Below, one piece after another: positions 4,812 to 20,051 of a stretch of DNA of 37,582 bases. A program made the position numbers and the translations under genes. Numbering within the stretch: the stretch's first letter is position 1; each line of letters starts with the position of its first letter. Below the pieces are notes generated by a model. The model had not been told where the DNA came from. It ran no database searches and worked only from the letters and a program-made list of their open reading frames with translations. Source of the stretch: Gammaproteobacteria bacterium (lineage in GTDB: Bacteria > Pseudomonadota > Gammaproteobacteria > Steroidobacterales > Steroidobacteraceae); contig VBNH01000077.1 in assembly GCA_005878095.1 (NCBI GenBank), positions 1 through 37,582 of the forward strand. Direction: 5' to 3'.

Positions 4812-5051
4812 ATGTCGGTGCGAGCCACCATCACGTCGCTGTTCGAACAGGTTGCCCGCGAGCAGCAGAGGAAACTGTCGCCGCTGTCCGATGACCTGAA
4901 GCTTCTCGCGTCGGGCCTGGACTCGCTCAGTTTCGCTCTCATCGTCGCGCGGCTGGAGGACAAGCTCGGCTATGACCCGTTCGACACCGCCGAGAGCTTT
5001 CCGGTGACGTTCGGCGACTTCGTCAGACTGTACGAAAGCCACTCGCGCTAG
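4812..5051 (+). CDS. Acyl carrier protein (ACP1)
   Basis: 79 aa, a typical free-standing carrier protein. The phosphopantetheine attachment site is Ser38 in SGLDSLSFALIV, with the canonical D-S-L. It is followed by helix RLEDKLGYDPF and a C-terminal helix FGDFVRLYE. A TTG at 4797 is in frame, but the ATG at 4812 has GGAG at 4799-4802 with 9-nt spacing and is preferred. The downstream AMP-ligase starts 5 nt after its stop and the SDR overlaps that, so the trio ACP1-ligase-SDR forms one tight operon. The simplest reading is that the ligase at 5057 loads ACP1 and the SDR acts on the bound acyl group. It is not the housekeeping AcpP: the sequence is divergent and no fab genes are nearby. Confidence 0.85.
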   Translation: MSVRATITSLFEQVAREQQRKLSPLSDDLKLLASGLDSLSFALIVARLEDKLGYDPFDTAESFPVTFGDFVRLYESHSR

Positions 5052-5056
5052 CGGCC

Positions 5057-6445
5057 ATGTGGCTGTGGGGGTCGTTGACAGCCTCCGGCACGCCGCCCTC
5101 GGGATGCCTGTATGGCGCGGGCGCACGCATCGAGCTTGCAACGCTGGCCGGGGCGTCGAGCCTCGGCGCTCGATTGGAAGCGCTGCGCGGGCGCACCGTC
5201 CTCGTTGCCGCCCGCGACCAATTGAGCGCCGCACTCGCGCTGATCGAGCTCGATGGGGTGGTGCGGCGCATGGTGCTCTGTCCGCCCGACTTGTCTGCCG
5301 AGCATGCGCCCGCCGTGATGCGCGATTCGGGAGCGGATGCGTACCTCACCGATGCGGGCGCCGATGCGGGCGCCACAGCCGTACGCGGCCTCGAGGGGCT
5401 GCACGTCAGCAGCGCCGCGGCGTTGCGACCGCTCGGCCTTGCACGGCGGCGCTCGCACGACACGGAGTGGATCCTGCTCACTTCCGGCACCAGCGGGGCA
5501 CCGAAACTGGTGCAGCACACGCTCGCGAGCCTCACGAGCGCGTTCAGCGCTCAGGAGGCTCCCCCGGGCCCCCTCGTATGGGGCACGTTCTATGACATCC
5601 GCCGCTATGGCGGTCTGCAGATCTTCCTGCGCGCGCTGTACCATGGGTCGCTGGTGCTTTCGAGCGCTGCGGAATCGACCGCCGATTTCCTCGCACGCGC
5701 CGCCGCGGCGGGAGTCACACACATCTCTGGAACCCCCTCGCACTGGCGCCGGGCGCTCATGAGCGGCGCCACCGCACGGATTTCGCCGCGCTATGTGCGC
5801 TTGTCCGGGGAGATCGCCGATCAGGCGATCCTCGACAGTCTGCGCCATGCCTTTCCGCAGGCGACCGTCGCGCACGCGTTCGCGTCCACCGAGGCGGGGG
5901 TGGGATTTGAGGTGCGCGACGGGCTCGCCGGCTTCCCGGCGGGTCTGGTCGGAGCCCCCGGGGCCGCGGTCGACATCGACGTGGCAGGGGGTACGCTGCG
6001 GCTGCGGTCCGCCGGCAATGCGACGGGCTACCTCGGCGCGCACGCGCCTGCGCTCAAGGACAGCGACGGCTTCATCGACACGGGGGACCGCGTCGAGCTG
6101 CGCGACGGACGCTACGTTTTCATCGGCCGCAGCGGCGGAGTCATCAACGTCGGGGGACTCAAGGTATATCCTGAGGAGGTGGAGGCGATCATCAATGCCC
6201 ATCCCGGGGTGCGCATCTCGCTCGTCAAGGCTCGCCGCAGCCCGATCACCGGAGCCGTCGTGACGGCGGAGGTCGTGCTCATCGAGGGCGCGGCGACCGG
6301 AGCGCAGGCCGAGGAGCTGGTGAAGGGCGAGATTCTGCAGGCGTGCCGTCGTGCCCTGGCGGCGCACAAGGTGCCGATGAGCATTCGGATCGTGCCGGCA
6401 CTCGAGGTCTCCGGGTCCGGCAAGCTGGTGCGTCCAGATGCGTAA
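5057..6445 (+). CDS. ANL-superfamily acyl/aryl-adenylating ligase, probable ACP1 loader
   Basis: 462 aa, short for the ANL superfamily. Motifs in order: P-loop LLTSGTSGAPK (residues 140-150), GTPSHW, the A5-like AFASTEAG, DTGDRVE (A7), the hinge GRSGGVINVGGLKVYPEEVE, and the C-terminal SGSGKLVR carrying the lysine used for adenylation. The N-terminal subdomain is reduced compared with acetyl-CoA or fatty acyl-CoA synthetases, as in ligases dedicated to a small acid and a carrier protein. The ATG at 5057 is 5 nt after the ACP1 stop, and the SDR ATG overlaps its end by 8 nt. I infer that it activates a carboxylic acid and transfers it to ACP1. The adenylate-forming chemistry is supported by motifs; the substrate cannot be read from sequence. 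Confidence 0.83.
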   Translation: MWLWGSLTASGTPPSGCLYGAGARIELATLAGASSLGARLEALRGRTVLVAARDQLSAALALIELDGVVRRMVLCPPDLSAEHAPAVMRDSGADAYLTDAGADAGATAVRGLEGLHVSSAAALRPLGLARRRSHDTEWILLTSGTSGAPKLVQHTLASLTSAFSAQEAPPGPLVWGTFYDIRRYGGLQIFLRALYHGSLVLSSAAESTADFLARAAAAGVTHISGTPSHWRRALMSGATARISPRYVRLSGEIADQAILDSLRHAFPQATVAHAFASTEAGVGFEVRDGLAGFPAGLVGAPGAAVDIDVAGGTLRLRSAGNATGYLGAHAPALKDSDGFIDTGDRVELRDGRYVFIGRSGGVINVGGLKVYPEEVEAIINAHPGVRISLVKARRSPITGAVVTAEVVLIEGAATGAQAEELVKGEILQACRRALAAHKVPMSIRIVPALEVSGSGKLVRPDA

Positions 6446-7172
6446 CGTCGTGGTCACAGGAGGCAGCCGCGGGATCGGGCTGGCGATTGCCACGGCTCTT
6501 GCGGCGGGCGGCTATCGCGCGATTGCCATCGCCCGCACCGAGAGCGAGGAGCTGCGTTCCGCCATTGCGGCGGGAAATGCTCACGGGGGCGCGGTGAGCT
6601 TTCGCGCCTTCGATCTGGCCGACAGCGCCGCACTCGCGGGGCTCGCCGGCAGCCTGCGCGAGGAGTTCGGCCCTCTTTACGGGCTCGTCAACAATGCCGG
6701 CATCGGCACGAGCGGCATGCTCACGCTGATGCGCGATGAGCAGATCGAGGAGCTGGCGCGCCTCAACATGATCGCGCCGATCATCCTCACCAAGTACGTG
6801 CTGCGTGGGATGATGGTCGAGCGGGCGGGCCGCATCGTCAACATCGCCTCGATCGTCGGCGGCTCGACCGGCTATAGCGGGCTGTCGGTCTACGCGGCCA
6901 CGAAGGCGTCCCTCATCGGATTCACCCGCTCGCTGGCGCGCGAGGTCGGGCAGCTCGGCATCACGGTCAATGCGGTCGCACCCGGCTTCGTTGACACGCA
7001 GATGACGCGCGATTTGGGCGCACAACAGCGCGAGCAGATCGTGCGCCGCAGCGCCCTGCGGCGGCTCCCCGGCGCCGATGACGTCGCTGGCAGCGTCGAG
7101 TTCCTGCTGAGCGAGCGCGCCCGGAACATCACCGGCATCACACTCACGGTGGACGCCGGCAACACGGTCTAG
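6438..7172 (+). CDS. Short-chain dehydrogenase/reductase, FabG-like
   Basis: 244 aa classical SDR. The Rossmann motif is TGGSRGIG at residues 7-14, the structural NNAG lies at 85-88, and the catalytic set is Ser138, Tyr152 and Lys156 (S...VYAATK). The closing PGFVDTQMTRDL and the end ITLTVDAG match the 3-oxoacyl-[ACP] reductase group. It probably reduces a keto group on an ACP1-bound acyl chain with NAD(P)H, although related SDRs act on free alcohols. The start overlaps the ligase stop by 8 nt and the next gene starts 2 nt after its stop, so it is translationally coupled on both sides. This is a secondary FabG-type gene inside a specialised cluster. Confidence 0.88.
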   Translation: MRNVVVTGGSRGIGLAIATALAAGGYRAIAIARTESEELRSAIAAGNAHGGAVSFRAFDLADSAALAGLAGSLREEFGPLYGLVNNAGIGTSGMLTLMRDEQIEELARLNMIAPIILTKYVLRGMMVERAGRIVNIASIVGGSTGYSGLSVYAATKASLIGFTRSLAREVGQLGITVNAVAPGFVDTQMTRDLGAQQREQIVRRSALRRLPGADDVAGSVEFLLSERARNITGITLTVDAGNTV

Positions 7173-7174
7173 CC

Positions 7175-8572
7175 ATGTGCGCGTGGGTGACTCGTAGCGC
7201 TGCGATCTCCTGCGTTGCAATCGGCGTTGCCGCCTGCTCGCACCGGAGCGTACCCGCGGACCCCTGGGATCCGCAGGCCGCCGCAGCGTACCTTGACCAC
7301 AGAATCGAGTGGTGGATGGGATGGTCGAGCGCGGCCCGCGATCAAGGGACTTTCTGCTTCTCCTGCCATACCGCGGTGCCCTATGCGCTCGCGCGCCCGA
7401 GTCTTCGCACGGCGCTCGCCGAGGCCGCTCCCACCGCCGCCGAGCGCCGGCTCATGGAGGACGTCAGACAGCGCGTACGGCTGTGGAACGCGACTCGCCC
7501 CTTCTACACCGATCAGCGCAACGGGCCGGGCAAGAGCGCCCAATCCCGCGGCACCGAGGCCGTCCTGAGCGCGCTGATGCTGGCCTGGGATGACGCGCGC
7601 AGCGCTCGCCTCAGCGCCGAGACCCGTGCGGCGCTCGACCACATGTGGGCCGTGCAGCAGGCGAGCGGGCCCGACCGCGGAGCGTGGGCGTGGCTCGACT
7701 TCAATCTGGCGCCCTGGGAGGTACCGGACGCGCAGTACTATGGAGCCGCCCTCGCTGCCCTGGCGGTCGCAGTCGCCCCGCAGGACTATCGATCGATCCC
7801 GCAGGTCCAGGACCCTCTGCAGCTGTTGCGCGAATACCTGGCGCGCAATTACCCGGCGCAGTCCCTGCACCATCGCCTGGTGCTGCTGTGGGCCTCGACG
7901 AGACTCGCCGGGCTCCTGAGCTCCGAGCAACGTCAGGCGCTCATCGAAGCGGCGCTACGCGGACAGAACCCGGATGGCGGCTGGAGTCTGTCCGCGCTGG
8001 TTTCGCCCTCGAGCAGGCGCGGTGAACTGCTGCGCGATGCGGCGAGCGACGGCTATGCGACCGGCCTCGCCACGCTCGTGCTGGAGCAGGCGGCCATGCC
8101 CCGCGCGCTCGAGGCAGTACGACACGGCCGGTCCTGGCTGGTGCGCAACCAGCGCGGGCACGGAGGGCTCTGGATCCGTGGGCAGGAGGGCTTCTGGGTC
8201 ACGCATTCCCTGAACAAGCGCCGCAATCCCTCGAGCAACGTCGGCCTGTTCATGAGTGATGCGGCGACGGCCTACGCGGTCCTCGCGCTGACCCGATCGC
8301 CTGGCGTTGAAAGACCCAACCCTGTCCCAACTCCGCGAGGGCGCGCGGCGCGCCCGCTACAGACGCAGGCTCCCCGCCCGCAGGCGCTCGTACAGGGCCC
8401 CATCGACTCTCACGTAAGCCTCGAGCGCCCGGTCGTCGAAATACACCGGGTCGCTGACCCGCGCCGGATCGTATCCCTGCAGTGCCAGCTCGCTTTTCTT
8501 GAGCCTGAATGTGCCCGTGAGCTCGATCGAGGGCACGATCCGAATGAACAGCGGACGCGCGTACGCCGGTAG
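7175..8572 (+). CDS. Squalene-cyclase-fold lipoprotein with a CXXCH motif; C-terminal tail suspect
   Basis: 465 aa. The N-terminus MCAWVTRSAAISCVAIGVAAC ends in a lipobox (V-A-A-C), so it is probably a periplasm-facing lipoprotein. Soon after come WWMGWSSAARDQGTFCFSCH and a stretch ending LARPSLR. The C-F-S-C-H matches the c-type haem attachment motif. The remainder has alpha/alpha-toroid helices and QW-like repeats (QNPDGGWSL, GGLWIRGQEGFW), as in squalene/hopene-cyclase-like domains. I do not see the cyclase DXDD acid, so cyclase activity is not supported. It starts 2 nt after the SDR stop and belongs to the ACP1 operon. The recognisable domain ends near 8310. The last 80 or so residues are proline/arginine-rich and read antisense through the 3' end of the next gene. 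A TGA in the +1 frame near 8306 makes a small indel or read-through possible. Function unknown. Confidence 0.7.
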   Translation: MCAWVTRSAAISCVAIGVAACSHRSVPADPWDPQAAAAYLDHRIEWWMGWSSAARDQGTFCFSCHTAVPYALARPSLRTALAEAAPTAAERRLMEDVRQRVRLWNATRPFYTDQRNGPGKSAQSRGTEAVLSALMLAWDDARSARLSAETRAALDHMWAVQQASGPDRGAWAWLDFNLAPWEVPDAQYYGAALAALAVAVAPQDYRSIPQVQDPLQLLREYLARNYPAQSLHHRLVLLWASTRLAGLLSSEQRQALIEAALRGQNPDGGWSLSALVSPSSRRGELLRDAASDGYATGLATLVLEQAAMPRALEAVRHGRSWLVRNQRGHGGLWIRGQEGFWVTHSLNKRRNPSSNVGLFMSDAATAYAVLALTRSPGVERPNPVPTPRGRAARPLQTQAPRPQALVQGPIDSHVSLERPVVEIHRVADPRRIVSLQCQLAFLEPECARELDRGHDPNEQRTRVRR

Positions 8573-10150
8573 AGCCTGCAGGTGGTGCCGCAAGGCCGCC
8601 AGCTCGAACTGCGCTGCCACCACGACGGCCGCCATGCCTGCACGCCCCTCGGTCCCCGGCACGCTGACTCCGTAGACCACGGCATCGCTCACGCCCGGGC
8701 AGGCGGTAATGACGGCGGTGACCTCGCCGGTGGAAACGTTCTCGCCCTTCCAGCGGAAGGTGTCGCCAACGCGATCGACGAAATAGAAAAACCCCTGTTC
8801 GTCCTGGCGCATCAGATCGCCGGTGCGGTACCAGGCATCGCCCTCGGCGAAGACATCGCGGAGGATCTTCTGCTTCGACGCCTCAGGATCGGCGTAGCCT
8901 TCGAAGCGCCCGCCGTCCTGCCCGCCCGGTCTCGACAGCGCGCCGATGGCCTCGCCGACTTCATCGGGTGCGCACCGCAGGCAGCGCCCGGCCTCGTCCC
9001 GCACGGGAGCGCCCGCTTCGGTGTCGAATCTGACCAGGGCGACGGGCACGCGATGCGCCAGGAACGCCGGGATCCTGCCGATCGCGCCGGCGCGCCCTTC
9101 GCAGTTGTACAAGGAGAAGCTGCCTTCGGTCGCAGCGTAATATTCCAGGATCTGCGGAATGCGGAAGCGTCGCTGGAACTCCTCCCAGACCTCCGCCCGC
9201 AGGCCGTTGCCGCAGCAGAGCCTGAGCGCGTGCCGCGTCTCCTGCGCCTGCGGAGGGCTCGCCAGCAGATAACGGCACAGCTCACCGATGTACTGAAAGA
9301 GTGTGCAGCGCTCCTGCACGATGTCCTGCCAGAACTCGCGCGCCGAGAACCGCTCGCGCAGCACCACGGCGCCGCCACCCACGAGCGGCGCGCCGCTCGC
9401 CACCACGCCGCCGATGCTGTGGTACATCGGCAGGCAGTTGTACATGCGATCGGAGGGTGCGGTGTCCATCAGGCCGGCAAACCAGTGAGTCCACTGCATG
9501 AGGCGAAAATGGCTGACGTTGGCCGCCTTGGGGAGCCCGGTCGTGCCCGAGGTGTAGATAAAGAGTGCGCGGTCCTCGAGCGACGGCGCCGGCGCCTCCG
9601 AGTCGCTCAACCGATCTGCCGGCATGCGCGCGGCCTCGAGGTCAAGCCGCGGCAGATCCGCATCGCCCGCGCCGTGTGCCCAGCACCCGAGCGTGCTCGG
9701 CAGGCGCGCACGCGCTGCCTCGAGCGCGGCGCTCAGAGCGGCCCCGACGAGCACGCAGCGAGGGGCCACGACCCGGATAGCGTGGGCCAGCAGCTCGCCG
9801 GTCAGGTTCGTGTTGAGCAGCGACACGGTGACGCCGATGCGGGACAGGCCGAGCCAGATGGCCATGTAGTCGGGGCAGTTCTCCATCAGCAGGCACACGA
9901 CGTCCCCGGCTTTCAGGCCGTGCGCGAGGCCCCAGCGCGCGTAACGACTCACCGCCTGCGCGAGCGCGCGATAGCTGAGAGAGACGTCGCGCGCGAGCAG
10001 CGCCGGCGCCGCGTCGAATCGCTCGGCCAGAGTGTCGATGAGCAGCGGCAGGATCGGCGCCTGGCCGCGCTCGATCGGCGCGGTCGCCTCGAGTGCGTGC
10101 AGCCACGCCTTCAGAGGTGATCGCATGTTTTCAGGACGGGGAGCGCTCAT
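8357..10150 (-). CDS. Long-/very-long-chain acyl-CoA synthetase, FATP/FadD6-like
   Basis: 597 aa. ANL motifs: IYTSGTTGLPKAA, CLPMYHSIGG, YYAATEGS, WYRTGDLM, then FVDRVGDTFRWKGENVST, which is characteristic of the FATP/very-long-chain acyl-CoA synthetase branch. A conserved FEGYADPEASKQKILRDVF block lies before A7. The enzyme would activate a fatty or bile-acid-like carboxylate to its CoA thioester; the branch is usually membrane associated. It is on the opposite strand to its neighbours, so it is transcribed separately, with its start 90 nt from the divergent sulfhydrylase-like gene. The ATG at 10150 has no clear Shine-Dalgarno; an in-frame ATG at 10126 is an alternative. Its 3' end overlaps the tail of the cyclase-like gene by 216 nt. 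The conserved C-terminus of this ligase makes its own frame the more trustworthy. Confidence 0.88.
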   Translation of the reverse strand: MSAPRPENMRSPLKAWLHALEATAPIERGQAPILPLLIDTLAERFDAAPALLARDVSLSYRALAQAVSRYARWGLAHGLKAGDVVCLLMENCPDYMAIWLGLSRIGVTVSLLNTNLTGELLAHAIRVVAPRCVLVGAALSAALEAARARLPSTLGCWAHGAGDADLPRLDLEAARMPADRLSDSEAPAPSLEDRALFIYTSGTTGLPKAANVSHFRLMQWTHWFAGLMDTAPSDRMYNCLPMYHSIGGVVASGAPLVGGGAVVLRERFSAREFWQDIVQERCTLFQYIGELCRYLLASPPQAQETRHALRLCCGNGLRAEVWEEFQRRFRIPQILEYYAATEGSFSLYNCEGRAGAIGRIPAFLAHRVPVALVRFDTEAGAPVRDEAGRCLRCAPDEVGEAIGALSRPGGQDGGRFEGYADPEASKQKILRDVFAEGDAWYRTGDLMRQDEQGFFYFVDRVGDTFRWKGENVSTGEVTAVITACPGVSDAVVYGVSVPGTEGRAGMAAVVVAAQFELAALRHHLQALPAYARPLFIRIVPSIELTGTFRLKKSELALQGYDPARVSDPVYFDDRALEAYVRVDGALYERLRAGSLRL

Positions 10151-10240
10151 AATGCGCAGACGGTGCCGATGGCGTCAGCGCATTTGATACGCAGGCGCGG
10201 TCTTGGCAGCGGATGTCAGACCAACAGGTGATGCGAGGCA

Positions 10241-11521
10241 ATGAGACCAGAGACTATCGCTTTGCACAGCGGCTTCGACTGCGACCCGGCCACCAAGTCC
10301 GTTGCCGTGCCGATCTACCAGACGGTTGCCTACTCCTTCGACAGCGCCGCGCATGGCGCGGCTCTGTTCGACCTCGAGGTCGAGGGCTATCGCTATTCGC
10401 GCATCGCCAACCCGACCAACGCAGTGCTCGAGCGGCGCGTCGCCGATCTCGAGGGGGGTGCGGATGCCCTGAGCGTGAGTACCGGGCAGGCGGCGGTGCA
10501 CTTCGCGGTGCTGGCCGTGACGGAAGCGGGCCGCACCATCGTCTCGGTGCCGCAGCTCTACGGGACCACGCACACGCTGCTCGCGCACATTCTGCCCAGG
10601 TTCGGAGTCAAGACGAGGTTCGCCAGGTCCGACAAGCCCGCGGATCTCGCGGCCCTCATCGATGAGAGCACCAGTGCCGTGTTCTGCGAGACGGTCGGCA
10701 ATCCCGCCGGCAATGTCTGCGACCTGGAGGCGATGGCCGAAGTGGCGCATCGCTCGGGGGTGCCGCTGATCGTCGACAACACGGTTCCCACCCCGATACT
10801 GATTCGCCCCATCGACTACGGCGCGGACGTTGTCGTGCACTCGCTCACCAAGTTCCTCGGCGGTCACGGTACCACCCTCGGCGGCATCATCGTGGACGCC
10901 GGCAAGTTTCCCTGGCAGAAGCACGCCGTACGATTCCCGATGCTGACGCAGCCGGACGATTCCTACCATGGACTCGTCTACACAGAGCACTACGGGCCGC
11001 AAGCCTACATCGGCCGCTGTCGCAGCGTCTATCAAAGGACCATGGGCGCGGTGTTGCCGCCGCTCAGCGCCTTTCTGCTGCTGCAAGGCATCGAGACGGT
11101 GGCTCTGCGCGTGGAGCGTCACGTCGAGAATGCGCGGCGGGTCGCGGAATTCCTGCGTGCCGACCGGCGCGTCGCCTCGGTCAGCTATGCCGGCTTCCCG
11201 GACAGCCCGTACTACGCACTGGTGCAGAAATATCTCGGCGGGCGCGCCTGCTCGCTGCTTACCTTCGCGATTCGCGGCGGCTACGATGCCGGCACCCGCT
11301 TCTACGACGCCTTGCGCCTGTTCAAGCGGCTGGTGAATCTCGGGGATGCGAAGTCCCTGGCGTGTCATCCCGCATCGACCACACACCGGCAGATGTCGGC
11401 GGAGGAGCAGCGCCTCGCGGGCATAGGGCCCGAGACCCTGCGCCTGAGTGTCGGCATCGAGCACATCGATGACATCATCGCCGACCTCGACCAGGCACTT
11501 GGTGCCGCCACGCGCGGCTGA
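10241..11521 (+). CDS. metY: O-acetylhomoserine sulfhydrylase-like PLP enzyme (Cys/Met metabolism family)
   Basis: 426 aa, full length for the family. The PLP lysine is Lys204 in SLTKFLGGHGTTLGG. Upstream are YRYSRIANPTNAVLERRVADLEGG (phosphate and substrate-binding region) and VDNTVPTPILIRP (cofactor aspartate). The C-terminus SVGIEHIDDIIADLDQAL is typical. Known family members catalyse gamma-replacement on O-acyl-L-homoserine, normally with sulfide, giving homocysteine. It is followed after 15 nt by a PLP decarboxylase, and a MetA-like homoserine acyltransferase lies 3 kb away. Enzyme and likely acyl-homoserine supplier therefore sit in the same cluster. Inside a carrier-protein cluster the nucleophile might not be sulfide; some fungal relatives (Fub7 in fusaric acid synthesis) use a carbon nucleophile. 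The primary-metabolism assignment remains possible. Confidence 0.85.
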   Translation: MRPETIALHSGFDCDPATKSVAVPIYQTVAYSFDSAAHGAALFDLEVEGYRYSRIANPTNAVLERRVADLEGGADALSVSTGQAAVHFAVLAVTEAGRTIVSVPQLYGTTHTLLAHILPRFGVKTRFARSDKPADLAALIDESTSAVFCETVGNPAGNVCDLEAMAEVAHRSGVPLIVDNTVPTPILIRPIDYGADVVVHSLTKFLGGHGTTLGGIIVDAGKFPWQKHAVRFPMLTQPDDSYHGLVYTEHYGPQAYIGRCRSVYQRTMGAVLPPLSAFLLLQGIETVALRVERHVENARRVAEFLRADRRVASVSYAGFPDSPYYALVQKYLGGRACSLLTFAIRGGYDAGTRFYDALRLFKRLVNLGDAKSLACHPASTTHRQMSAEEQRLAGIGPETLRLSVGIEHIDDIIADLDQALGAATRG

Positions 11522-11536
11522 CGGGCTCGAAGGCGC

Positions 11537-12949: not shown

Positions 12950-13234
12950 GGCGCGAAGCCGCCGCACCAGCTGCTCGACCGAGACAATGGACTCGAAATT
13001 CTCCGGGGTAATCTCGGCCTGCGGGATCGTGAGCTTGAACTCGACCTCGATGGCGAGCATGAGGTTCACCATCTTGATGGAGCTCATCCCGAGTTCGCTC
13101 AGGCGCGCATCGATCGGCAGAGGTCGGGAGGCGGCCGGGGGGCCGAGAATCTGCCTGATCAGACCGATCAGGCGCTCCCGCGGCGTGCTGTCGGAGACCT
13201 GGGTTCCAAGCTCGCTCATGTCCCACACCATCAT
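12932..13234 (-). CDS. Carrier protein (ACP2), candidate partner of the amino acid:CP ligase
   Basis: 100 aa from the ATG at 13234; a second ATG at 13219 would give 95 aa. The 13234 start is favoured because it forms an ATGA overlap with the stop of the MetA-like gene, implying translational coupling. The phosphopantetheine site is Ser52 in SELGMSSIKMVNLMLAIE, where the usual D-S-L reads S-S-I. The segment EFKLTIPQAEITPENFESI is a typical helix II-III region of small stand-alone carrier proteins. It resembles the carrier proteins I recall beside amino acid:[carrier protein] ligases more than it resembles AcpP or ACP1. I infer it is charged by the ligase at 15652. No 4'-phosphopantetheinyl transferase is in the window, so it would depend on one encoded elsewhere. 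Confidence 0.83.
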   Translation of the reverse strand: MMVWDMSELGTQVSDSTPRERLIGLIRQILGPPAASRPLPIDARLSELGMSSIKMVNLMLAIEVEFKLTIPQAEITPENFESIVSVEQLVRRLRASSGGG

Positions 13235-14232
13235 ACCTGCGCCCGGACGACCGTGCCTGCGGCGGCCTTCGCATTCGCCAGCAGCGACAGCCAGTTGCGG
13301 TACATCGTCAGGGCCGCGGGCCGCCAGCTGCTGTGCGCGCCGGCTGCGGCGGCGGAAGGGAAGTCGGTGAGCAACTCCGGCGTGCGCTGCGACAGCGCGC
13401 GATCCTGGAACTCGCGCAGCGCCGCCGCCGCCTCGGCGGAAAAGTAGCGGCAGGGGAGCGGCGGGTAACCCGACTGCTCCCCGCTCAGGAACCGGCCGAC
13501 ATCGCGCCGGTACTCCTTGAACAGCGTGGTGCGCTCGTACTCCGGATGACCCTGGAAGAACAGGTGCAGGCTGCGGCGCTGCTTGACGAACAAGTCCGCA
13601 CCCGACTCGGGTGAGCAGCTGAGGATCGCATATCCGGCGGCGCGCAGCTGCGCCACCGGCAGCTCGTTCCATCGGGAATGCGGCATGCGCAGCGGGGCCG
13701 AGACGCCACGCACGAGCGGGTGGCCAGCGAGAACGGAGTGCTCAAAGACGCCGAAGCGCTTCTGCCCGAGGCGCTGGCGGCGAACGCCGTCGAGCACCTC
13801 GACGGCGGCGTGAGCGGCGAGGCACGACCAGATGCTCGAGACGGTGTGGGCCTCGGCCCAGTGGAGCACCTCCACGAACTGTGCCCAATACGGCTCATCG
13901 CTCAACGCGGCCGCGCGCGGCTCCGTTCCGGTGACGATGAGCGCATCCGGCGCCTGCCGCAGCAGCTCCTCGAGGCTCCAATAGGTGCGCTCAATGCGCT
14001 CGCGGGCGGCCGGTCCGCGCGGCACTCCCGGGAGGCAGGAGAAGCGCAGCCGCACCGGCTGGGAGCCCCCCGCCGCATCCAGCAAGGCTGCGAACTGGCC
14101 CTCGGTTGCCTCGAGGGCTGCGTCCGGCATATTGTTGAGGACGCCGATGACGATGCCGTGCGAGGCGGCGCGGCGATCGCAGCCGCCATGCGCTGGCGTT
14201 GCGGATCGCGCCGGCTCGACGTGCAGCGGCAT
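13231..14232 (-). CDS. metA: MetA-family homoserine O-acyltransferase, divergent
   Basis: 333 aa. The start at 14232 has GAGGCGAGG upstream. It has a glutamine-amidotransferase-like fold as in MetA: GVLNNMPDAALEATEGQF near the N-terminus, nucleophile Cys137 in SIWSCLAAHAA, MPHSRWNE, and the acid-base pair His229/Glu231 in FQGHPEYE. Counting back from the nucleophile, the residue known to switch acetyl (Glu) versus succinyl (Gly) specificity at position 111 of the family is Arg106 here (TGTEPR). The acyl donor is therefore unclear. The family acylates the hydroxyl of L-homoserine for methionine synthesis. The gene is coupled by ATGA to ACP2. That suggests a role tied to the carrier protein, perhaps acyl transfer from a carrier, rather than plain methionine supply. 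The assignment to the family is firm; the substrate is not. Confidence 0.78.
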   Translation of the reverse strand: MPLHVEPARSATPAHGGCDRRAASHGIVIGVLNNMPDAALEATEGQFAALLDAAGGSQPVRLRFSCLPGVPRGPAARERIERTYWSLEELLRQAPDALIVTGTEPRAAALSDEPYWAQFVEVLHWAEAHTVSSIWSCLAAHAAVEVLDGVRRQRLGQKRFGVFEHSVLAGHPLVRGVSAPLRMPHSRWNELPVAQLRAAGYAILSCSPESGADLFVKQRRSLHLFFQGHPEYERTTLFKEYRRDVGRFLSGEQSGYPPLPCRYFSAEAAAALREFQDRALSQRTPELLTDFPSAAAAGAHSSWRPAALTMYRNWLSLLANAKAAAGTVVRAQV

Positions 14233-14252
14233 CAGACCTCGCCTCTTAACTG

Positions 14253-14263
14253 TGACCCGGTCA
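14253..14263. promoter_or_regulatory. Short palindrome upstream of the metA-like gene
   Basis: TGACC-C-GGTCA is a perfect 11-nt palindrome, 21 nt before the metA-like ATG, in the 209-nt gap between the divergent metA-like and dehydrogenase genes. It could be an operator. It does not match the MetJ or MetR consensus. No clear promoter hexamers were found in this gap. Confidence 0.2.
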
Positions 14264-14441
14264 AGCAGCGGCTAGGGTACTTGTCAGGGCCTGTTAACAC
14301 TACGGGCGCACAGCTTCGGTGATATGCGCCAAGTAGACTACGCGATGAACACCAGCTTGAGCGAGTCGAAGCGGCTAAATAAGGCGCGAGAGTCCTCAAG
14401 TCTTCCGGAGAGCCGCTCGAATTCATTGCGGCGTCGATAGA

Positions 14442-15635
14442 ATGAACAGAGCGCCATCCGCCACCGCGGCCCGCACGCCGGCCGACTTCAAGACACGCGT
14501 GCAGGCGGTCACCGCGGTCGCCGCGCAGCACGCCGCATCCGTCGACAGCGCCGCCCGCTTCCCCGAGGAAGCGTTCGCGGCCGTCAAGTCGCAGCGCCTG
14601 CTCGGTATCCTGGTGCCGGAGAGGCTCGGGGGCGAGGGCGCAGACCTCGCGCAGGTTGCCGACGTGTGCTACCAGCTGGCTCAGGCGTGCGCCTCGACCG
14701 GCATGATCTACGCGATGCACCAGATCAAGACGGCCTGCATCCTGCGGCACATGCGCGACAGCCAGGCACTCGGGCGTTTGCTGCGTCGTTTGTGTGCGGA
14801 ACAGCTGCTGCTGGCGTCCTCGACCACCGAGGGCCAGGGCGGCGGAAACGTCCGCGCCAGCGAGGCACCGGTCGAGTACCGCGACCGCCGCATCAGCCTG
14901 GAGCGGCGCGCGAGCGTCATCTCCTACGGCGCGTACGCCGACGGCATCGTGACGACCGCACGGCGCTCCTCCGATGCGGCGGCGTCGGATCAGGTGCTGG
15001 TCGCCTTCCTGAAGGACGACTACACCCTCACGCGGCTGCAGGGCTGGAACACGTTAGGGATGCGCGGAACCTGCAGCGAGGGCTACACACTCAAGGCGTC
15101 GGGTGCGGCGGATCAGATCGTGCCGGAGCCGTACGAGATCATCCATCCGCAGACCATGGTTCCGTGCGCCCATCTGCTGTGGGGCTCGGTATGGGCGGGT
15201 ATCGCTGCGGATGCGACCGCGCGCGCCCAGGGGTTCATCCGCCTGGTGGTGCGCCAGAGTGGCGGGCAGACCCCTCCGGGGGCGCCCCAGTACACCCGCG
15301 CGCTCGCATCGCTGCGGACCTTGCGCGGGATGTTGGCGAGCTCGCTGCGCGCCTACCAGCGCTCGATGGACGACCCCAAGGCGCTGGCGTCGCTCGAATT
15401 CCAGACCATGATCACCCTGACCAAGGTGGAGGCCTCCGAGCTCGCGGTGTCGATCGTGCTGTCAGCGATGCGCGCCTGCGGGTTGTCGGGATACCGCTGC
15501 GACAGTGAGTTCAGCATCGAGCGGCATCTGCGCGACGTACTCTCCGCGCCGATCATGATCAACAACGATCGGATACTGACCAACCTCGGGAGCTCCTCGC
15601 TGCTCACGCCGATTGCGGCCTCGATCGGCGATTGA
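14442..15635 (+). CDS. Acyl-CoA-dehydrogenase-like flavoprotein, probable carrier-bound substrate oxidase
   Basis: 397 aa with acyl-CoA dehydrogenase architecture: N-terminal helices (RFPEEAFAAVKSQRLLGI, VPERLGGEGADLAQ), a middle beta-domain with TTEGQGGGNV and GWNTLGMRGTCSEGYTL, and the C-terminal helical domain. FAD binding is expected from SGYRCDSEFSIERHLRDV near the end. Where classical enzymes carry the F-E-G-T catalytic Glu, this protein reads SAPIMINNDRI, so the usual base is missing. It starts an operon with the amino acid:CP ligase 16 nt downstream. By analogy with flavoproteins that oxidise aminoacyl thioesters (for example prolyl-carrier-protein dehydrogenases), it may oxidise the aminoacyl group on ACP2. 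That is inference; a CoA substrate is not excluded. Confidence 0.82.
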   Translation: MNRAPSATAARTPADFKTRVQAVTAVAAQHAASVDSAARFPEEAFAAVKSQRLLGILVPERLGGEGADLAQVADVCYQLAQACASTGMIYAMHQIKTACILRHMRDSQALGRLLRRLCAEQLLLASSTTEGQGGGNVRASEAPVEYRDRRISLERRASVISYGAYADGIVTTARRSSDAAASDQVLVAFLKDDYTLTRLQGWNTLGMRGTCSEGYTLKASGAADQIVPEPYEIIHPQTMVPCAHLLWGSVWAGIAADATARAQGFIRLVVRQSGGQTPPGAPQYTRALASLRTLRGMLASSLRAYQRSMDDPKALASLEFQTMITLTKVEASELAVSIVLSAMRACGLSGYRCDSEFSIERHLRDVLSAPIMINNDRILTNLGSSSLLTPIAASIGD

Positions 15636-15651
15636 CGACGCCACTCCTCAC

Positions 15652-16557
15652 ATGAGTTCCGAGGCGCCCGATCCCCTGCAGCACATCGGCGCTGCGCTGT
15701 TCAGGCCGCTCGGGGTCGACGGCGTGTACGCGCGCACGGCTTTGTACGAGGACCTGGTGGAGCGGCTCACCGCCTTCATCTCGCGCCAGCGCGACCGGAG
15801 CGCGGAAATCCTGCGTTTCCCGCCGCTCATGAGCCGTGAGCAGCTGGAGAAGTCCGGGTATCTCAAGAGCTTTCCCAATCTGCTCGGGTGCGTGTGCGCG
15901 CTGCATGGCACGGAGGCCGAGATCCGCGCGGCGGCCGAGCGGTACGAGGAGGGCGGAGACTGGACCCGAGCGCTCGCGCCCGCGGACCTGGTGCTGTCGC
16001 CCGCGGCGTGCTACCCGGTCTATCCCCTCATCGCGCCCCGCGGAGCCGTTCCGTCCGCTGGACTGCTGTTCGACGTGGCGGCCGACTGCTTTCGCCGCGA
16101 GCCGTCGCGCTCCCTGGACCGCCTGCAGTCATTTCGCATGCGCGAGTTCGTGCGCATCGGCCCGCCCGAGGAGATCCTGGCGTTTCGGCAGCATTGGATG
16201 GAGCGCGCGCAACGCCTTGCCGCGCAGCTCGCCCTGCCATGCAGGCTCGATGCGGCCAGCGACCCGTTCTTCGGGCGCGTCGGGCAGGTGATGGCGGTGA
16301 GTCAACTGCAGCAGTCACTGAAGTTCGAGCTGTTGATCCCGTACTACGCTGGCGCGAAGCCTACCGCCTGCATGAGCTTCAACTACCATCGCGACCAGTT
16401 CGGCGTGATCTGGGGCCTGAAGGACGAAGCCGGTGCCACCGCGCACACCGGCTGCGTCGCCTTTGGCATGGACCGGCTGGCCATCGCGCTGTTCTGCGTC
16501 CACGGTCTGGAGCCCGCGCGCTGGCCGGGCTCGGTGCGCGCCGCGCTCGCGCTGTGA
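15652..16557 (+). CDS. Amino acid:[carrier protein] ligase (class II aminoacyl-tRNA-synthetase-like)
   Basis: 301 aa from the ATG at 15652; an in-frame ATG at 15613 overlaps the preceding stop and is less likely. It is a free-standing class II catalytic core without a tRNA-binding domain. Motif 2-like FRMREFVRIG and motif 3 FGMDRLAIALF are present. Putative zinc ligands are Cys120 (SPAAC), Glu165 (RMRE) and Cys268 (HTGC). Their spacings of 45 and 103 residues equal those I recall for Cys131, Glu176 and Cys279 of Bradyrhizobium Bll0957, the archetype of these seryl-tRNA-synthetase homologues. The family activates small amino acids (Gly, Ala) with ATP and loads them onto the phosphopantetheine of a carrier protein, not onto tRNA. 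ACP2 at 12932 is the likely acceptor and the preceding dehydrogenase a likely next step. The biological role of this family is still largely unknown. Confidence 0.9.
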   Translation: MSSEAPDPLQHIGAALFRPLGVDGVYARTALYEDLVERLTAFISRQRDRSAEILRFPPLMSREQLEKSGYLKSFPNLLGCVCALHGTEAEIRAAAERYEEGGDWTRALAPADLVLSPAACYPVYPLIAPRGAVPSAGLLFDVAADCFRREPSRSLDRLQSFRMREFVRIGPPEEILAFRQHWMERAQRLAAQLALPCRLDAASDPFFGRVGQVMAVSQLQQSLKFELLIPYYAGAKPTACMSFNYHRDQFGVIWGLKDEAGATAHTGCVAFGMDRLAIALFCVHGLEPARWPGSVRAALAL

Positions 16558-16603
16558 TCGAGCGCTTGCGGGCGCGCGCTGCGGGCCGCCTTCCTTCACC
16601 AAC

Positions 16604-17545
16604 ATGCCACTCGACCCCCACGCCAAGCGCCTGTTGGAGCGGCTCGCCGCCACCAATCCCCCGAGCGCTCGCAGCCTTACGATCAGCGAGCGCCGCAGCG
16701 CGCTGCAGGATCTGCTCGCTTTTTCCGGCCTGCGGGAGGAAGTGGAGTGCGTGGAGAATCGTACCCTGCCCGCGGCGGAGGCCCCGCTGGCGGTGCGCGT
16801 GTACACGCCCAGCGGCGCGCCGCGCACCCCGCTGCCCGCGCTCATCTACTTCCACGGCGGTGGGCTCGTCGCCGGCAGTCTCGATTCGCACGACGCGATC
16901 TGCCGCTCCCTCACCAACGCCAGCGGCTGTCGGCTGATTTCCGTCGACTACCGCCTGGCTCCCGAGCATCTTTTTCCGGCCGCCCTCGCGGACGGCTACG
17001 CGGCGGTGGCGTGGGTGGCTGCTCACCCGCGCGAGTTCGGCATCGACGCCGATCGGATCGTGCTGGGCGGAGACTCCGCGGGCGCCACGCTCGCCGCCGT
17101 CGTATGCCAGATGGCCGCCACGGCCGGCCACCCGCGCCTCGCGCTGCAGCTGCTGATCTGTCCGATCCTGGACGCCCGCGCCGTCACTGAGTCGCGCCGC
17201 GCCTTTGCCCAGGGCCACCTGCTCGATCAGGCGACCCTGGATCACGATCTCGCGCACTATCTCGGGCCGGATGTCGATCCCACGGATGCGCGGGTGTCAC
17301 CGCTGCGCGCGGCACACGTGCAGAGGCTGCCACCGACTTGCATTCACACCGCGGAGTTCGATCCTCTGCGCGATGAGGGTGCGGCCTACGCCGAGCGGCT
17401 GCGGCTTGCCGGCGTGAACACGACCTACCGATGTCACTCCGGTATGATCCATCTTTTCTATGGCATGGGGAGACTGATTCCATATGCGGCCACGGCCTAC
17501 AGGCTCATCGGCGCGGACATCCGCTCGATGCTCGCTGACACCTGA
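16604..17545 (+). CDS. HSL-family alpha/beta-hydrolase (esterase/acetylhydrolase)
   Basis: 313 aa from the ATG at 16604. The longer frame from 16433 runs inside the ligase gene and is rejected. Hormone-sensitive-lipase family motifs: oxyanion-hole HGGG at 84-87, the SVDYRLAPEH block, nucleophile Ser158 in GGDSAGA, the aspartate of EFDPLRDEG, and the histidine of SGMIHLFYG. No signal peptide, so cytoplasmic. It hydrolyses short-chain esters or thioesters. In this operon it may release or deacylate a product, but these esterases are common and promiscuous. It lies 46 nt after the amino acid:CP ligase and 15 nt before the NTF2-like gene, so co-transcription is likely. Confidence 0.86.
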   Translation: MPLDPHAKRLLERLAATNPPSARSLTISERRSALQDLLAFSGLREEVECVENRTLPAAEAPLAVRVYTPSGAPRTPLPALIYFHGGGLVAGSLDSHDAICRSLTNASGCRLISVDYRLAPEHLFPAALADGYAAVAWVAAHPREFGIDADRIVLGGDSAGATLAAVVCQMAATAGHPRLALQLLICPILDARAVTESRRAFAQGHLLDQATLDHDLAHYLGPDVDPTDARVSPLRAAHVQRLPPTCIHTAEFDPLRDEGAAYAERLRLAGVNTTYRCHSGMIHLFYGMGRLIPYAATAYRLIGADIRSMLADT

Positions 17546-17560
17546 CGCGAGCGACAGCCG

Positions 17561-17944
17561 ATGGTGGATCGCCTTCAGGTAGAGCGGCTGCTGCAACAGC
17601 TGTATGCGGCGCGCGTCGGCGGGCGGCTGGACGAGCTGTGCGCGCTGTTTGCCGACGACGCGCACTTCAGGATCGCCGGCACCAGCGACGGCAAGCCGAT
17701 CGCGGTGGCGGCCCGCGGGAGCGGCGAAATACGGTCCTGGCTCGCGATGATGGTGAAGACGTTCAAGCTCAACCGCCGCGAAGAGCTCTGCACCATGATC
17801 GACGGTGCCCGCAGCGCCGTGCATTGGCGCGCCGACATTCATTCCCGGATCACCGGCGCCGTCGTGTCCACCGAGCTCATCGATCTGATCGAAGTGCGTG
17901 CCGGGCGCATCGTCTCCTATATCGAGTACTTCGTGCCGTGTTGA
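17561..17944 (+). CDS. NTF2-like (SnoaL/ketosteroid-isomerase fold) protein
   Basis: 127 aa. The pattern is that of the cone-shaped SnoaL-like fold: an N-terminal helix VERLLQQLYAARVGGRLDEL, then ALFADDAHFRIAG, a middle helix WLAMMVKTF, and the strands LIDLIEVRAGRIVSYIEYFVP. Family members are small isomerases, cyclases or dehydratases in natural-product and steroid pathways, or simple binding proteins. I cannot identify catalytic residues with confidence. It follows the esterase after 15 nt and ends the run of tightly packed plus-strand genes. A role in the product pathway is plausible but unproven. Confidence 0.72.
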   Translation: MVDRLQVERLLQQLYAARVGGRLDELCALFADDAHFRIAGTSDGKPIAVAARGSGEIRSWLAMMVKTFKLNRREELCTMIDGARSAVHWRADIHSRITGAVVSTELIDLIEVRAGRIVSYIEYFVPC

Positions 17945-18149
17945 TCCTGAGCCGGTGAAACACGGGCGATGGAGGTTGCGAGGTTCGAGTGTGCATCGAT
18001 CGGGCGACTGCCTGCAGCTCAGGCCGAGCCGTCCGGATGCTCCGGCGGGCGCTGCGTGCGTCGTACGACGGGGGTTTCTAGGTAGAGTTCGCTGTGGCGC
18101 TGCGCGCGATATGCTGCGACTTCATGGCGGCCCCGATGGGTAAGGAACC

Positions 18150-20051
18150 ATGAGCGCTGAGCCGACCGATCTACCCCGCCTCGCGACTGGCGCGGGGTCG
18201 GCCGTGCCGCTGTACTTCGACTCGGCAGCGCACCGGCTGTTCGGCTGGTTGCATCGGCCCGCCGTGCCGGCAGCGCCGGGCCTGGGGGTGGTGATCTGCA
18301 AGCCCTTCGGCTACGAGGCGCTGTGTGCGCACCGCAGCGTGCGTGCGTTCGCCGAGGCGGCGGTGGAGCTCGGCGTGCCCGCGCTGCGCTTCGACTACCG
18401 GGGCACCGGCGATTCCGCGGACATAGAGCCCGCGGCCGATCAGATCGATGTCTGGCGGCAGGACGTGGCGGCCGCGGTCGGCGAGCTGCGCCGCCAGACG
18501 GGCGTGGAGCGCGTGTGCCTGCTCGGATTTCGGCTGGGCGCGCTGCTTGCCATACTGGCCGGCGCAGGATCTGCGGCTGTGAATGCGCTGATGGTCGTCG
18601 CACCCGTGCTCAGCGGCCGCCGCTACCTGCGCGAACTGCGCACTACACAGCTTGCCGCGGCCGAGCCGGGCACCCTCATCCGCAATGACCCCCAGGCGCC
18701 TGGCGCCGGCTCGATGGAAGTCAGCGGCTTCTCCCTGTCGGCAGCCAGCGCTGCACACCTGTCGCAGCTGGATCTGTCGGCGCCGGTGCAACCACCGGCT
18801 TCCGACGTGCTCATCATCGATCGCGATGATCTGCCCGGTGCCCGCGGCTGGAGCGAGTTGCTGCCCGGGCTTGGGGTTCGCACGCGCTATGTCGCGCTGC
18901 CCGGCTTCGTCGATATGATCATGACGGCGCCCCATGCGGCGGTCACTCCGCAATCCATGCTCGCGGCGATGCGGGAGTGGCTGGGCTCGCTCCCGGGCGC
19001 CCTGTCTGCGCCGTCGGCAGGCGCTGACGCGTCGCAGCTCGGGCGAGGGGAACCGCGGTCGGTTGCGCCCGTCCTGGCGCTCGTGAGCAACGAATGTCCC
19101 TCCGAGGCAGCCCCGAGTGAGTACCCCGTTCTGCTCGGCGCGCAGCGGACCCTGTTCGGCATCATCACCAGGCCGGCAGCGGACGAACCGCGGCGCCGCG
19201 CAGTGATTCTGCTCAACGCCGGGGCCACCTATCACATCGGCTCGGGCCGCGTCTATGTGTCGCTTGCGCGACGCTGGGCCCACCGCGGGTATGTCGTGTT
19301 GCGCATGGATCTGGCCGGCCTGGGTGACAGCGCGACGCGGCCCGGACAGCCGGATAACGAAGTCTTTCCGCCGGCCGCGCTCGAGGACGTGCGCATCGCG
19401 CTCGACTTCGTGCGCCAGCACTACCAGGTTCGCGAAGTCGCGCTGGGTGGGCTGTGCTCGGCCGCCTACCATGCTCTGCGCGCGGCGGTAGCGGGGCTGC
19501 CGGTGAACCGCCTGTTGATGGTGAATCCGCAGAATTTCGTCTCGGACGAGGGCCAGATGGGCACCGACCTGCAACTGGCAGAGGTGGTGCGCGACGTCGG
19601 CGGATATCGTGAGCGCGTCCTCTCCGCAGCGGCCTGGAAGCGGTTGCTGAGGGGTCAGGTGAACGTCTGGCACATAGTGCGTGTCTACCTGCACCGCGTG
19701 CGTATCGCTGTGCAATCCGCCGCGCGCGATGCCGCGCGAGCCCTGCACATTCGGCTGCCGCACGATCTGGGCTCGGAGCTGGAGGAGATCGCCGCGCGCG
19801 GTATCAGAGTGGTATTTGTGTTCGCGCGCGGTGATCCGGGCATCGAGCTGCTCAGGATCCAGGGCGGATCGGCGGTCCGGCGGCTCGGCGATCGCTGCCA
19901 CGTGCACATCGTCGACAGCGCCGATCACACATTCACCCAGAGTCGCGCGCGGGCGGTCCTCGAGCAGACCCTCAGCGCTGAGTTGTTTGTGCGTCACGAC
20001 GAGGTCGCCGACACCGCCGGGGCTCGCCCGGTTGCGCGGGCCGGCGGTTAA
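18150..20051 (+). CDS. Tandem alpha/beta-hydrolase protein with altered nucleophile elbows
   Basis: 633 aa, preceded by TAAGGA. Two alpha/beta-hydrolase domains lie in one chain. Domain 1 (about residues 15-290): GLGVVICKPFGYEAL, then LRFDYRGTGDS, and the elbow LLGFRLGALLA, where the expected Ser of G-x-S-x-G is Arg. Domain 2 (about 325-620): AVILLNAGATYHIGSGR, VLRMDLAGLGDSA, and the elbow LGGLCSAAYHA with Cys in the nucleophile place. HIVDSADHTFTQ near the end probably supplies the histidine. Each half resembles the paired hydrolases that accompany exosortase-A loci; there too unusual elbows occur, as far as I recall. Domain 1 is probably non-hydrolytic, while domain 2 could be a Cys-dependent acyltransferase or thioesterase. 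It follows the NTF2-like gene after 205 nt and may have its own promoter. Confidence 0.78.
   Translation: MSAEPTDLPRLATGAGSAVPLYFDSAAHRLFGWLHRPAVPAAPGLGVVICKPFGYEALCAHRSVRAFAEAAVELGVPALRFDYRGTGDSADIEPAADQIDVWRQDVAAAVGELRRQTGVERVCLLGFRLGALLAILAGAGSAAVNALMVVAPVLSGRRYLRELRTTQLAAAEPGTLIRNDPQAPGAGSMEVSGFSLSAASAAHLSQLDLSAPVQPPASDVLIIDRDDLPGARGWSELLPGLGVRTRYVALPGFVDMIMTAPHAAVTPQSMLAAMREWLGSLPGALSAPSAGADASQLGRGEPRSVAPVLALVSNECPSEAAPSEYPVLLGAQRTLFGIITRPAADEPRRRAVILLNAGATYHIGSGRVYVSLARRWAHRGYVVLRMDLAGLGDSATRPGQPDNEVFPPAALEDVRIALDFVRQHYQVREVALGGLCSAAYHALRAAVAGLPVNRLLMVNPQNFVSDEGQMGTDLQLAEVVRDVGGYRERVLSAAAWKRLLRGQVNVWHIVRVYLHRVRIAVQSAARDAARALHIRLPHDLGSELEEIAARGIRVVFVFARGDPGIELLRIQGGSAVRRLGDRCHVHIVDSADHTFTQSRARAVLEQTLSAELFVRHDEVADTAGARPVARAGG

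Follow-up and report, generated by a model that had tools for sequence, protein, structure and literature searches.

A conserved carrier-protein gene cluster built around an amino acid:[carrier protein] ligase in a Steroidobacteraceae genome

The stretch analysed here, called the window (37,582 nucleotides; assembly GCA_005878095.1, contig VBNH01000077.1, positions 1 to 37,582), comes from a draft gammaproteobacterial genome of the family Steroidobacteraceae (3.43 Mb, 191 contigs, 94.7% complete) and carries a gene cluster centred on an amino acid:[carrier protein] ligase (aa:CP ligase). The locus is a real, conserved and uncharacterised variant of the aa:CP ligase locus; uncultured relatives carry it as a block, and variants of it occur in Bradyrhizobium and allied bacteria. 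Its ligase, a carrier protein (ACP2) and an enzyme of the acyl-CoA dehydrogenase (ACAD) fold may form the fixed cassette of a dedicated, patchily distributed carrier-protein pathway, an explanation to which, taken as a whole, we give even chances. Members of the aa:CP ligase family activate small amino acids such as glycine or alanine and load them onto the phosphopantetheine of a carrier protein from the same operon (PMC9437257, PMC5370406), while the biological role of this ligation has been stated to be unknown (PMC9437257); here and below, statements on cited papers refer to the parts of their text that were available. No publication describing the present gene set was found in the literature searched, which left subscription literature largely uncovered, so that its absence is not proven.

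Distribution of the ligase and co-occurrence with its partner genes

A tree of 90 ligases fell into two sides with 100/100 support. The side referred to as clade I (66 rows) includes the window and the Bradyrhizobium loci, with MetA or MetY in 48 rows, other clade-I partners in 13 and DUF1839 in none, the remaining 5 rows being of other kinds; the second side, clade II, has 24 rows, 23 of them with DUF1839. Long branches meet between the two sides and at the alphaproteobacterial rows L235-L237, so that the support values may overstate how certain these joins are. Since L235-L237 also carry MetA and MetY, the MetA/MetY link is probably old in clade I and was lost in many Bradyrhizobium.

The ligase family was found in 26 of 99 genomes searched, comprising the window's own genome and others of its genus, family and order. 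Within the genus, 58 genomes including the window's own were compared for the clade-I ligase and four partners, with presence sets entered by hand; 23 carried the clade-I ligase, and two genomes with a clade-II ligase only (G033, G054) were counted as lacking it. MetA (PF04204) was found in all 23 and in one genome besides, while 34 genomes had neither gene (Fisher p=2.7e-15). The numbers of genomes with both genes, ligase only, partner only and neither were 21, 2, 2 and 33 for the pyridoxal phosphate (PLP) decarboxylase (at least 61% identity; p=1.7e-11), 19, 4, 2 and 33 for MetY (at least 75% identity; p=1.6e-9), and 20, 3, 3 and 32 for the ligase ANL1 (at least 59% identity; p=1.3e-9); all these p values overstate independence, the genomes being related and many of them drafts, and absences are among the matches listed, some perhaps being assembly gaps. 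In the sole genome with MetA and no ligase (G051), the contig breaks inside the neighbouring ACAD gene, and the cluster is therefore probably present there. Among the discordant genomes, G004 (65% complete) has ANL1, MetY and the decarboxylase on one contig with no ligase match, G043 (97% complete) has ANL1 alone, and G031 and G034 have the ligase and MetA without MetY, ANL1 or the decarboxylase. Gene order is shuffled among relatives and gene content is largely preserved. The association of these genes is real and strong; the preliminary description of this locus had proposed a discrete pathway and a neighbourhood comparison for ACP2, the ACAD, MetA-like and MetY-like genes, and this comparison found them recurring with the ligase across genomes, as a discrete pathway would have it.

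As a rough control, we searched 57 genomes (36 of the genus) for two flanking genes. The flanking amidase had no close orthologue (best 54% identity), and the best matches of the flanking histidine kinase lay in a genome without the ligase (G005) and in one with clade II only (G033); neither gene tracks the ligase, and both were rejected as cluster members. Some genomes of the genus carry a clade-II ligase (L054, L055, L057, L058 and L059, with DUF1839 at four of these five loci), and both ligase clades are present in G027, G038 and G044.

A wider scan of named genome contigs gave at least 550 relatives, and the best 80 of them were kept. These come from gamma-, beta- and alphaproteobacterial metagenome-assembled genomes (MAGs), many Bradyrhizobium, Rhodopseudomonas, Bauldia litoralis, Prosthecomicrobium hirschii and two records titled otherwise; the four named taxa are also those with isolates carrying the extended gene set among the matches listed. 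The clade-I set, drawn from these 80, the genus loci and a phylum sample with clade II excluded on purpose, held 116 loci, or 96 after identical ligases were dropped, not all of which are in the tree. Counted at chosen score thresholds, and with many loci cut by contig ends, ACAD was present at all 96 loci and a carrier protein at 87. The other families were a GNAT-like protein (50), the hydrolase EST (45), MetA (43), MetY (43), a SnoaL-like protein (33), a short-chain dehydrogenase/reductase (SDR; 28), ANL1 (27), a FadD6-like synthetase (27), ACP1 (26), the decarboxylase (26), a class IV aminotransferase (20), a cupin (10), a thiamine diphosphate (ThDP) enzyme (9) and the fused hydrolase (6). 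The phylum sample itself comprised 398 genomes including the window's own, with 28 above the ligase cut-off; at the 27 loci besides the window's, ACAD was found at 27/27, a carrier protein at 25/27 (not L236 and L237), and DUF1839 together with GH2 at 15/27. Among 17 places with ligase scores below the cut-off, the six inspected had no ACAD.

Catalytic residues of the ligase and the ACAD-fold enzyme

The window ligase matches the solved structures of Bll0957 from Bradyrhizobium (3MEY, E 1.3e-135; 4H2W, E 7.8e-133). Bll0957 (PDB 3MEY, 4H2S-4H2Y) belongs to the same ligase family, whose cut-off the window ligase exceeds, and has the same active-site segments. The window ligase has 301 amino acids, against 518 positions of the seryl-tRNA synthetase (SerRS) models, and its matches are confined to the C-terminal half of these models (positions 249-503 and 301-497), which points to a catalytic core without the tRNA-binding region. 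Residues were counted with identical rows taken once, in tblastn pieces from clade-I loci, clade-II loci and one Priestia locus. C120, E165, C268, R148 and E150 are each conserved in 121/121; the first three were numbered by gapless alignment to the Bll0957 structure and correspond to C131, E176 and C279, which we take to be the metal ligands of the Bll0957-type ligase. The serine for phosphopantetheine attachment is kept in 27/27 ACP1 and 93/93 ACP2 sequences.

The ACAD-fold enzyme has isoleucine (Ile373) in 118/118 sequences at the position of the MCAD-type catalytic glutamate, a column taken from the alignment to 3pfd (YEGT in 3pfd). At position 243, the glutamate site of the IVD/RedW type, alanine stands in 91 of 120 sequences, serine in 24, threonine in 3, glycine in 1 and cysteine in 1, with no glutamate and followed by H244 in 120/120; this column is less certain, since HMMER put an insertion there and the position was read gap-free by counting back from the conserved G-I-A segment. 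We presume that the glutamates at these two positions are the catalytic ones, the assignment for the pyrrole-forming enzymes alone being drawn from the literature. Beyond ordinary ACADs, a profile search brought up the entries 3m9v/4kcf, which we take to be KijD3 (71 bits), DnmZ (66 bits), the nitrososynthase 3mxl (64 bits) and the prolyl-ACP dehydrogenase 4irn (51 bits). Similarity alone therefore does not assign this family to the N-oxygenases, and the absent glutamate is the stronger fact.

Because glutamate is absent at both base positions, plain desaturation is doubtful; because glycine has no beta carbon, desaturation between Cα and Cβ is impossible for it. Taken together, these points leave imine formation or N-oxygenation as the most probable reaction on a glycyl-ACP2, with a slight preference for N-oxygenation. 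In a comparable case, ChmG, annotated as an ACAD and with methionine replacing the catalytic glutamate, N-oxygenates prolyl-ACP (PMC10849742), and AzsF/Tri22 oxidises a carrier-bound hydrazinoacetyl group to hydrazineylideneacetyl (PMC10445470). The earlier claim of an oxidation of aminoacyl-ACP2 is likely to hold in its general form, carrier protein, ACAD and ligase being a near-invariant core; the missing glutamates speak against plain desaturation as the form of that oxidation.

A proposed homoserine branch

For gene pairs we used the 63 of the 96 clade-I loci that have at least 5 kb on either side (flanked loci). MetA and MetY were both present at 28 of these, MetY alone at 6, MetA alone at none, and neither at 29. 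The cluster MetAs keep their catalytic residues (Cys 43/43, His 42/42, Glu 42/42), as well as the glutamate of the segment TG[TA]EPR (43/43). Two positions further on, at the column of acyl choice, they have R in 21, I in 8, K in 4, V in 3, L in 3, S in 2, C in 1 and M in 1 (n=43), with no glycine or glutamate; we assume here the position-111 rule, by which glycine or glutamate sets the choice of succinyl or acetyl in the HTS family. The PLP lysine is present in 43/43 MetY and 26/26 decarboxylase sequences. FUB7 forms C-C bonds, and MetY is about as close to it in the PDB (434 bits) as to the sulfhydrylases (451 and 424 bits, including the O-acetylhomoserine sulfhydrylase 8sf5), and the sequence therefore does not reveal the nucleophile. 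The idea that MetA takes an acyl unit from ACP2 was demoted: MetA occurs at the flanked loci only where MetY does, and supply of O-acylhomoserine fits better.

Among the 43 loci with MetY, 20 have the PLP decarboxylase, 18 have the class IV aminotransferase, none has both and five have neither; at two of these five (L042, L047), a decarboxylase with 61% identity lies on another contig of the genome. This exclusivity is suggestive only. The homoserine-derived unit of the preliminary description is thus backed by the tight link between MetA and MetY, and as a necessary part of the pathway it does not stand, since at the flanked loci MetY occurs without MetA or both are missing often enough (see below) that the branch is not obligatory.

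The ACP1 module

ACP1 and ANL1 were both present at 21 flanked loci and one without the other at 2, and the SDR accompanied ANL1 at 21 of the 23 flanked loci with either gene. The C-terminal lysine of ANL1 is kept in 31/31. ACP1, ANL1 and the FabG-like SDR have the look of a compact module for an acyl-ACP. The preliminary description would have the oxidised unit combined with an acyl unit on ACP1, a module that many loci with MetA/MetY do without.

Proposed pathway and competing explanations

From the gene content, the co-occurrence and the kept or absent catalytic residues, we infer substrates, a kind of oxidation, an order of steps and a product as follows. The ligase would activate a small amino acid, most likely glycine and possibly alanine, and load it onto ACP2. 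The ACAD-fold enzyme would then oxidise the bound amino acid at its nitrogen or its C-N bond, giving N-hydroxyglycyl-, oxime- or iminoacetyl-ACP2 with no desaturation between Cα and Cβ. In a parallel branch, MetA would make O-acylhomoserine, MetY would exchange the acyl group for a nucleophile, yielding a gamma-substituted 2-aminobutyrate, and the PLP decarboxylase would turn this into an amine; in alphaproteobacteria the class IV aminotransferase, sometimes with the ThDP enzyme, may replace the decarboxylase. ACP1, ANL1 and the SDR, together with the FadD6-like synthetase, could furnish an acyl unit, and hydrolase and SnoaL-like proteins might join or release the parts. The chemistry suggested in the preliminary description is plausible and partly supported. 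A bolder and improbable version would have the N-oxygenated glycyl-ACP2 species, or its breakdown product, act as the nucleophile of MetY on O-acylhomoserine, with decarboxylation giving an N-O-linked amine and this amine being coupled to the acyl group on ACP1; the whole would be a widespread chemistry free of nonribosomal peptide synthetases (NRPS) and polyketide synthases (PKS).

Several observations weigh against this scheme. The five best entries of the ACAD profile search are all ACADs (72-80 bits; 7p98, 80 bits), against 71 bits for 3m9v, and with the window ACAD sequence alone ordinary ACADs take ranks 1 to 7 and 3mxl comes eighth; moreover, no flavin reductase, which an N-oxygenase needs, was seen among the scanned cluster genes, that is, the window genes run against Pfam. 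MetY occurs without MetA at 6 of 34 flanked MetY loci, and neither gene is present at 29 of the 63. The exclusivity of decarboxylase and class IV aminotransferase follows phylogeny (gamma- and betaproteobacteria versus alphaproteobacteria) and may not mean equivalence. The ACP1 module is absent from many MetA/MetY loci. Finally, G058, a genome outside the genus (83% complete), has the ligase, ACAD, EST, the SnoaL-like protein, ANL1 (71%) and a piece of MetY (79%), with no HTS and no decarboxylase match at that level of completeness.

Among the other explanations, a canonical dehydrogenation, in which the ACAD turns alanyl-ACP2 into a dehydroalanyl thioester in the manner of RedW/PigA, or serves an aminomalonyl-ACP route, seems to us rather unlikely. 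It draws on the layout of carrier protein, ligase and ACAD, which matches that of the prolyl-carrier dehydrogenases, on the similarity ranking just given, on a Priestia cassette with permease and racemase genes for alanine beside it, which suggests alanine, and on an aminomalonyl-like set in Streptomyces (locus L250: 3HBDH, carrier protein, ACAD, SerRS-like ligase and an acyltransferase, AT). However, the catalytic glutamate is absent at both canonical positions, the L250 ACAD belongs to another subfamily (PigA/RedW type) with 22% identity to that of the window, and no 3HBDH, AT or ketosynthase (KS) was seen among the scanned window genes. That two or more separate pathways merely lie together, glycyl-ACP2 oxidation beside an ACP1-based acyl or lipid route, we consider unlikely: the modules are separable elsewhere (core only in many Bradyrhizobium, core with MetA/MetY, core with the ACP1 module), yet in the genus ANL1, the decarboxylase, MetY and MetA track the ligase largely as one block, and the cluster genes are interleaved in several differing orders.

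Dlt and AlmEFG systems pass an aminoacyl group from a carrier to a glycan or lipid, and a similar envelope decoration would suit the clade-II loci, which have DUF1839 and often GH2 with a hydrolase. DUF1839 has been placed in the papain-like fold, with a role in cell-wall glycan processing suggested (PMC10318531), and this link would favour such a decoration. Nevertheless, the window ligase lies in the clade without DUF1839, plain aminoacylation leaves no place for the conserved ACAD, and no gene like DltB/MBOAT or lipid A transferases was seen in the Pfam-scanned cluster genes of the window, the other loci not having been scanned gene by gene; envelope decoration is accordingly quite improbable. 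We reject, as very improbable indeed, the view that MetA and MetY serve housekeeping methionine synthesis and are located here by chance. In its favour, MetA is the only HTS match of the genome and both enzymes keep the checked catalytic residues; against it, 34/58 genomes of the genus have neither a clade-I ligase nor an HTS, and a MetX homologue exists elsewhere in the window's genome (351 bits, under the model cut-off of 500). Furthermore, cluster MetAs (27 chosen rows) form a clade of their own, split from 12 HTS that come from other families within the order (support 94/95, and 96% of bootstrap trees).

Comparison with related loci and known systems

The Bradyrhizobium loci with carrier protein and ACAD share the ligase clade of the window, while Bll0957 itself lies outside the tree. 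Among the Bradyrhizobium-titled loci, 24/37 are without MetY in the stretch examined, mostly with only the carrier protein, ACAD, ligase and a GNAT-like gene, and the window has MetA, MetY, the decarboxylase and the ACP1 module beyond this core. According to a study of a B. diazoefficiens phaR mutant under microaerobic conditions, the ligase gene bll0957 and the acd gene bll0958 had fold changes of 3.0 each, with 2.5 and 1.7 in a second column (PMC10888616), which is in keeping with a shared role. Loci of Azospirillum, Rhizobium and Mycetohabitans have the same core of carrier protein, ACAD and ligase as the window; their ligases, in contrast, lie on the other side of the tree, and DUF1839 (with GH2 in 3/4) replaces MetA, MetY and ACP1.

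Two known pathways resemble parts of the proposal. Chalkophomycin biosynthesis (ChmI/ChmJ/ChmG) shares with the window a stand-alone carrier protein, a ligase and an ACAD-fold enzyme without the catalytic glutamate, which there acts on a carrier-bound amino acid and here is predicted to; it differs in having a proline-adenylating enzyme instead of a SerRS-derived ligase and in feeding an NRPS (PMC10849742). In azaserine and triacsin biosynthesis (AzsF-AzsQ and Tri22-Tri30), an ACAD oxidises a carrier-held glycine analogue, much as proposed here for glycine, whereas the substrate is a hydrazine, the ligase is of the AMP-binding type and transfer of the unit to serine falls to an NRPS (PMC10445470). 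A hint from ACP2 to AmcB of cispentacin led nowhere, the cispentacin route using a type II PKS-like pair and beginning at 2-oxoglutarate (PMC10698177).

The window provides a context that makes the role of a long-orphaned ligase family testable, and it links the ligase clade of the Bradyrhizobium loci with a limited group of partner genes that can be defined. It singles out the ACAD as a near-obligatory partner enzyme, whose residues give reason to expect an unusual oxidation, and each step is open to in vitro work with small proteins.

More distant loci show other settings of such ligases. In Bacillota, on a Priestia megaterium plasmid (NZ_CP085444.1), the cassette has a holo-ACP synthase of its own, and the genes run acpS, ACP, ACAD, aa:CP ligase, transporter, ATP-grasp, hydrolase, alanine permease and alanine racemase (L249), which hints at an alanine-derived product with self-protection, perhaps an antimetabolite. 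The L250 locus, on a plasmid of Streptomyces sp. NBC_00984, has its 3HBDH, carrier, RedW/PigA-type ACAD, SerRS-like ligase (NF005479, 181 bits, under the cut-off) and AT within NRPS/PKS genes, and resembles a subcluster for aminomalonyl-ACP in which a SerRS-like ligase replaces the usual adenylation enzyme. Plasmids of Streptomyces decoyicus and Apilactobacillus kunkeei (L251, L253) carry distant SerRS-like ligases by a PP-binding protein with NRPS genes, or by a small open reading frame (ORF) with two ATP-grasp (ddl) genes.

Gene inventory and minor observations

The genes named in the preliminary description (two carrier proteins, two ANL ligases, the aa:CP ligase, the ACAD, an SDR, two PLP enzymes, MetA, an NTF2-like protein and hydrolases) were all found and score in the expected families (Table 1; curated models were applied with their cut-offs). 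Its statement that NRPS and PKS are absent held as well, in that the cluster genes run against Pfam showed no KS, condensation or modular A-PCP domain; the two ANL ligases are far under the cut-off of the amino-acid-adenylation model TIGR01733 (78 and 139 bits against 317), and the SDR also matches PF08659 KR, as SDRs do.

Table 1. Genes of the cluster in the window, with positions, strands and model matches
Feature	Position	Strand	Match
ACP1, stand-alone carrier protein	4812..5051	+	PF00550 24.6 bits, cut-off 20.8
ANL1, acyl/aryl-AMP ligase, probable ACP1 partner	5057..6445	+	PF00501/PF13193
SDR, FabG-like 3-oxoacyl-ACP reductase type	6438..7172	+	PF00106/PF13561; TIGR01830 206 bits, under cut-off 298
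FadD6/FATP-like long-chain acyl-CoA synthetase	8357..10150	-	PF00501; NF006134 734 bits, cut-off 625
MetY-like PLP gamma-substitution enzyme	10241..11521	+	TIGR01326 580 bits, cut-off 495
Group II PLP decarboxylase	11537..12949	+	PF00282 208 bits
ACP2, carrier protein	12932..13234	-	PF00550 32 bits
MetA-like homoserine O-acyltransferase (HTS family)	13231..14232	-	PF04204 203 bits; NF003776 396 bits, cut-off 358
ACAD-fold flavoenzyme without canonical catalytic Glu	14442..15635	+	PF02771 46 bits
Amino acid:[carrier protein] ligase (SerRS-derived)	15652..16557	+	NF005479 448 bits, cut-off 357
HSL-type alpha/beta-hydrolase (EST)	16604..17545	+	PF07859 239 bits
SnoaL/NTF2-like protein	17561..17944	+	PF12680 48 bits
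Fused two-domain protein, hydrolase 2 + hydrolase 1 of exosortase-A type, optional member	18150..20051	+	TIGR03100 143 bits, TIGR03101 118 bits, both under cut-off

An additional ORF of 465 amino acids (7175-8572), unlisted in the earlier account, has a CxxCH motif and no Pfam match and overlaps the FadD6-like gene on the opposite strand; it was found only in two close relatives (L038, and L186 in three pieces) and was rejected as a cluster member. Scans for exact repeats and tRNA genes gave nothing useful. Distance correlations among the cluster genes came to 0.65-0.92, values to which we give no weight, there being no unlinked control. No transporter common to most clade-I loci was seen, with part of the neighbouring ORFs annotated, and a family of sigma-54-type response regulators lies near five gammaproteobacterial loci.

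The GNAT-like family (about 290 amino acids, 40 loci) lies after the ligase in most alphaproteobacterial loci; three members were scanned, one giving a weak GNAT match slightly under the Pfam cut-off and two no significant match. The SnoaL-like gene never occurs alongside the GNAT-like gene at the flanked loci. One locus titled Frankia sp. RB7 (L114) has neighbouring ORF families as in the Bradyrhizobium loci, which could mean a mislabelled or contaminated record; the ligase of an Acidimicrobiaceae MAG (L130) groups with those of gammaproteobacterial MAGs in the tree. The fused hydrolase has a relative with 34% identity in an Azospirillum clade-II locus, and the HSL-type hydrolase may have a release or tailoring role. 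Possible starts of ACP2 lie at or slightly beyond the stop of MetA, which suggests translational coupling of the two genes.

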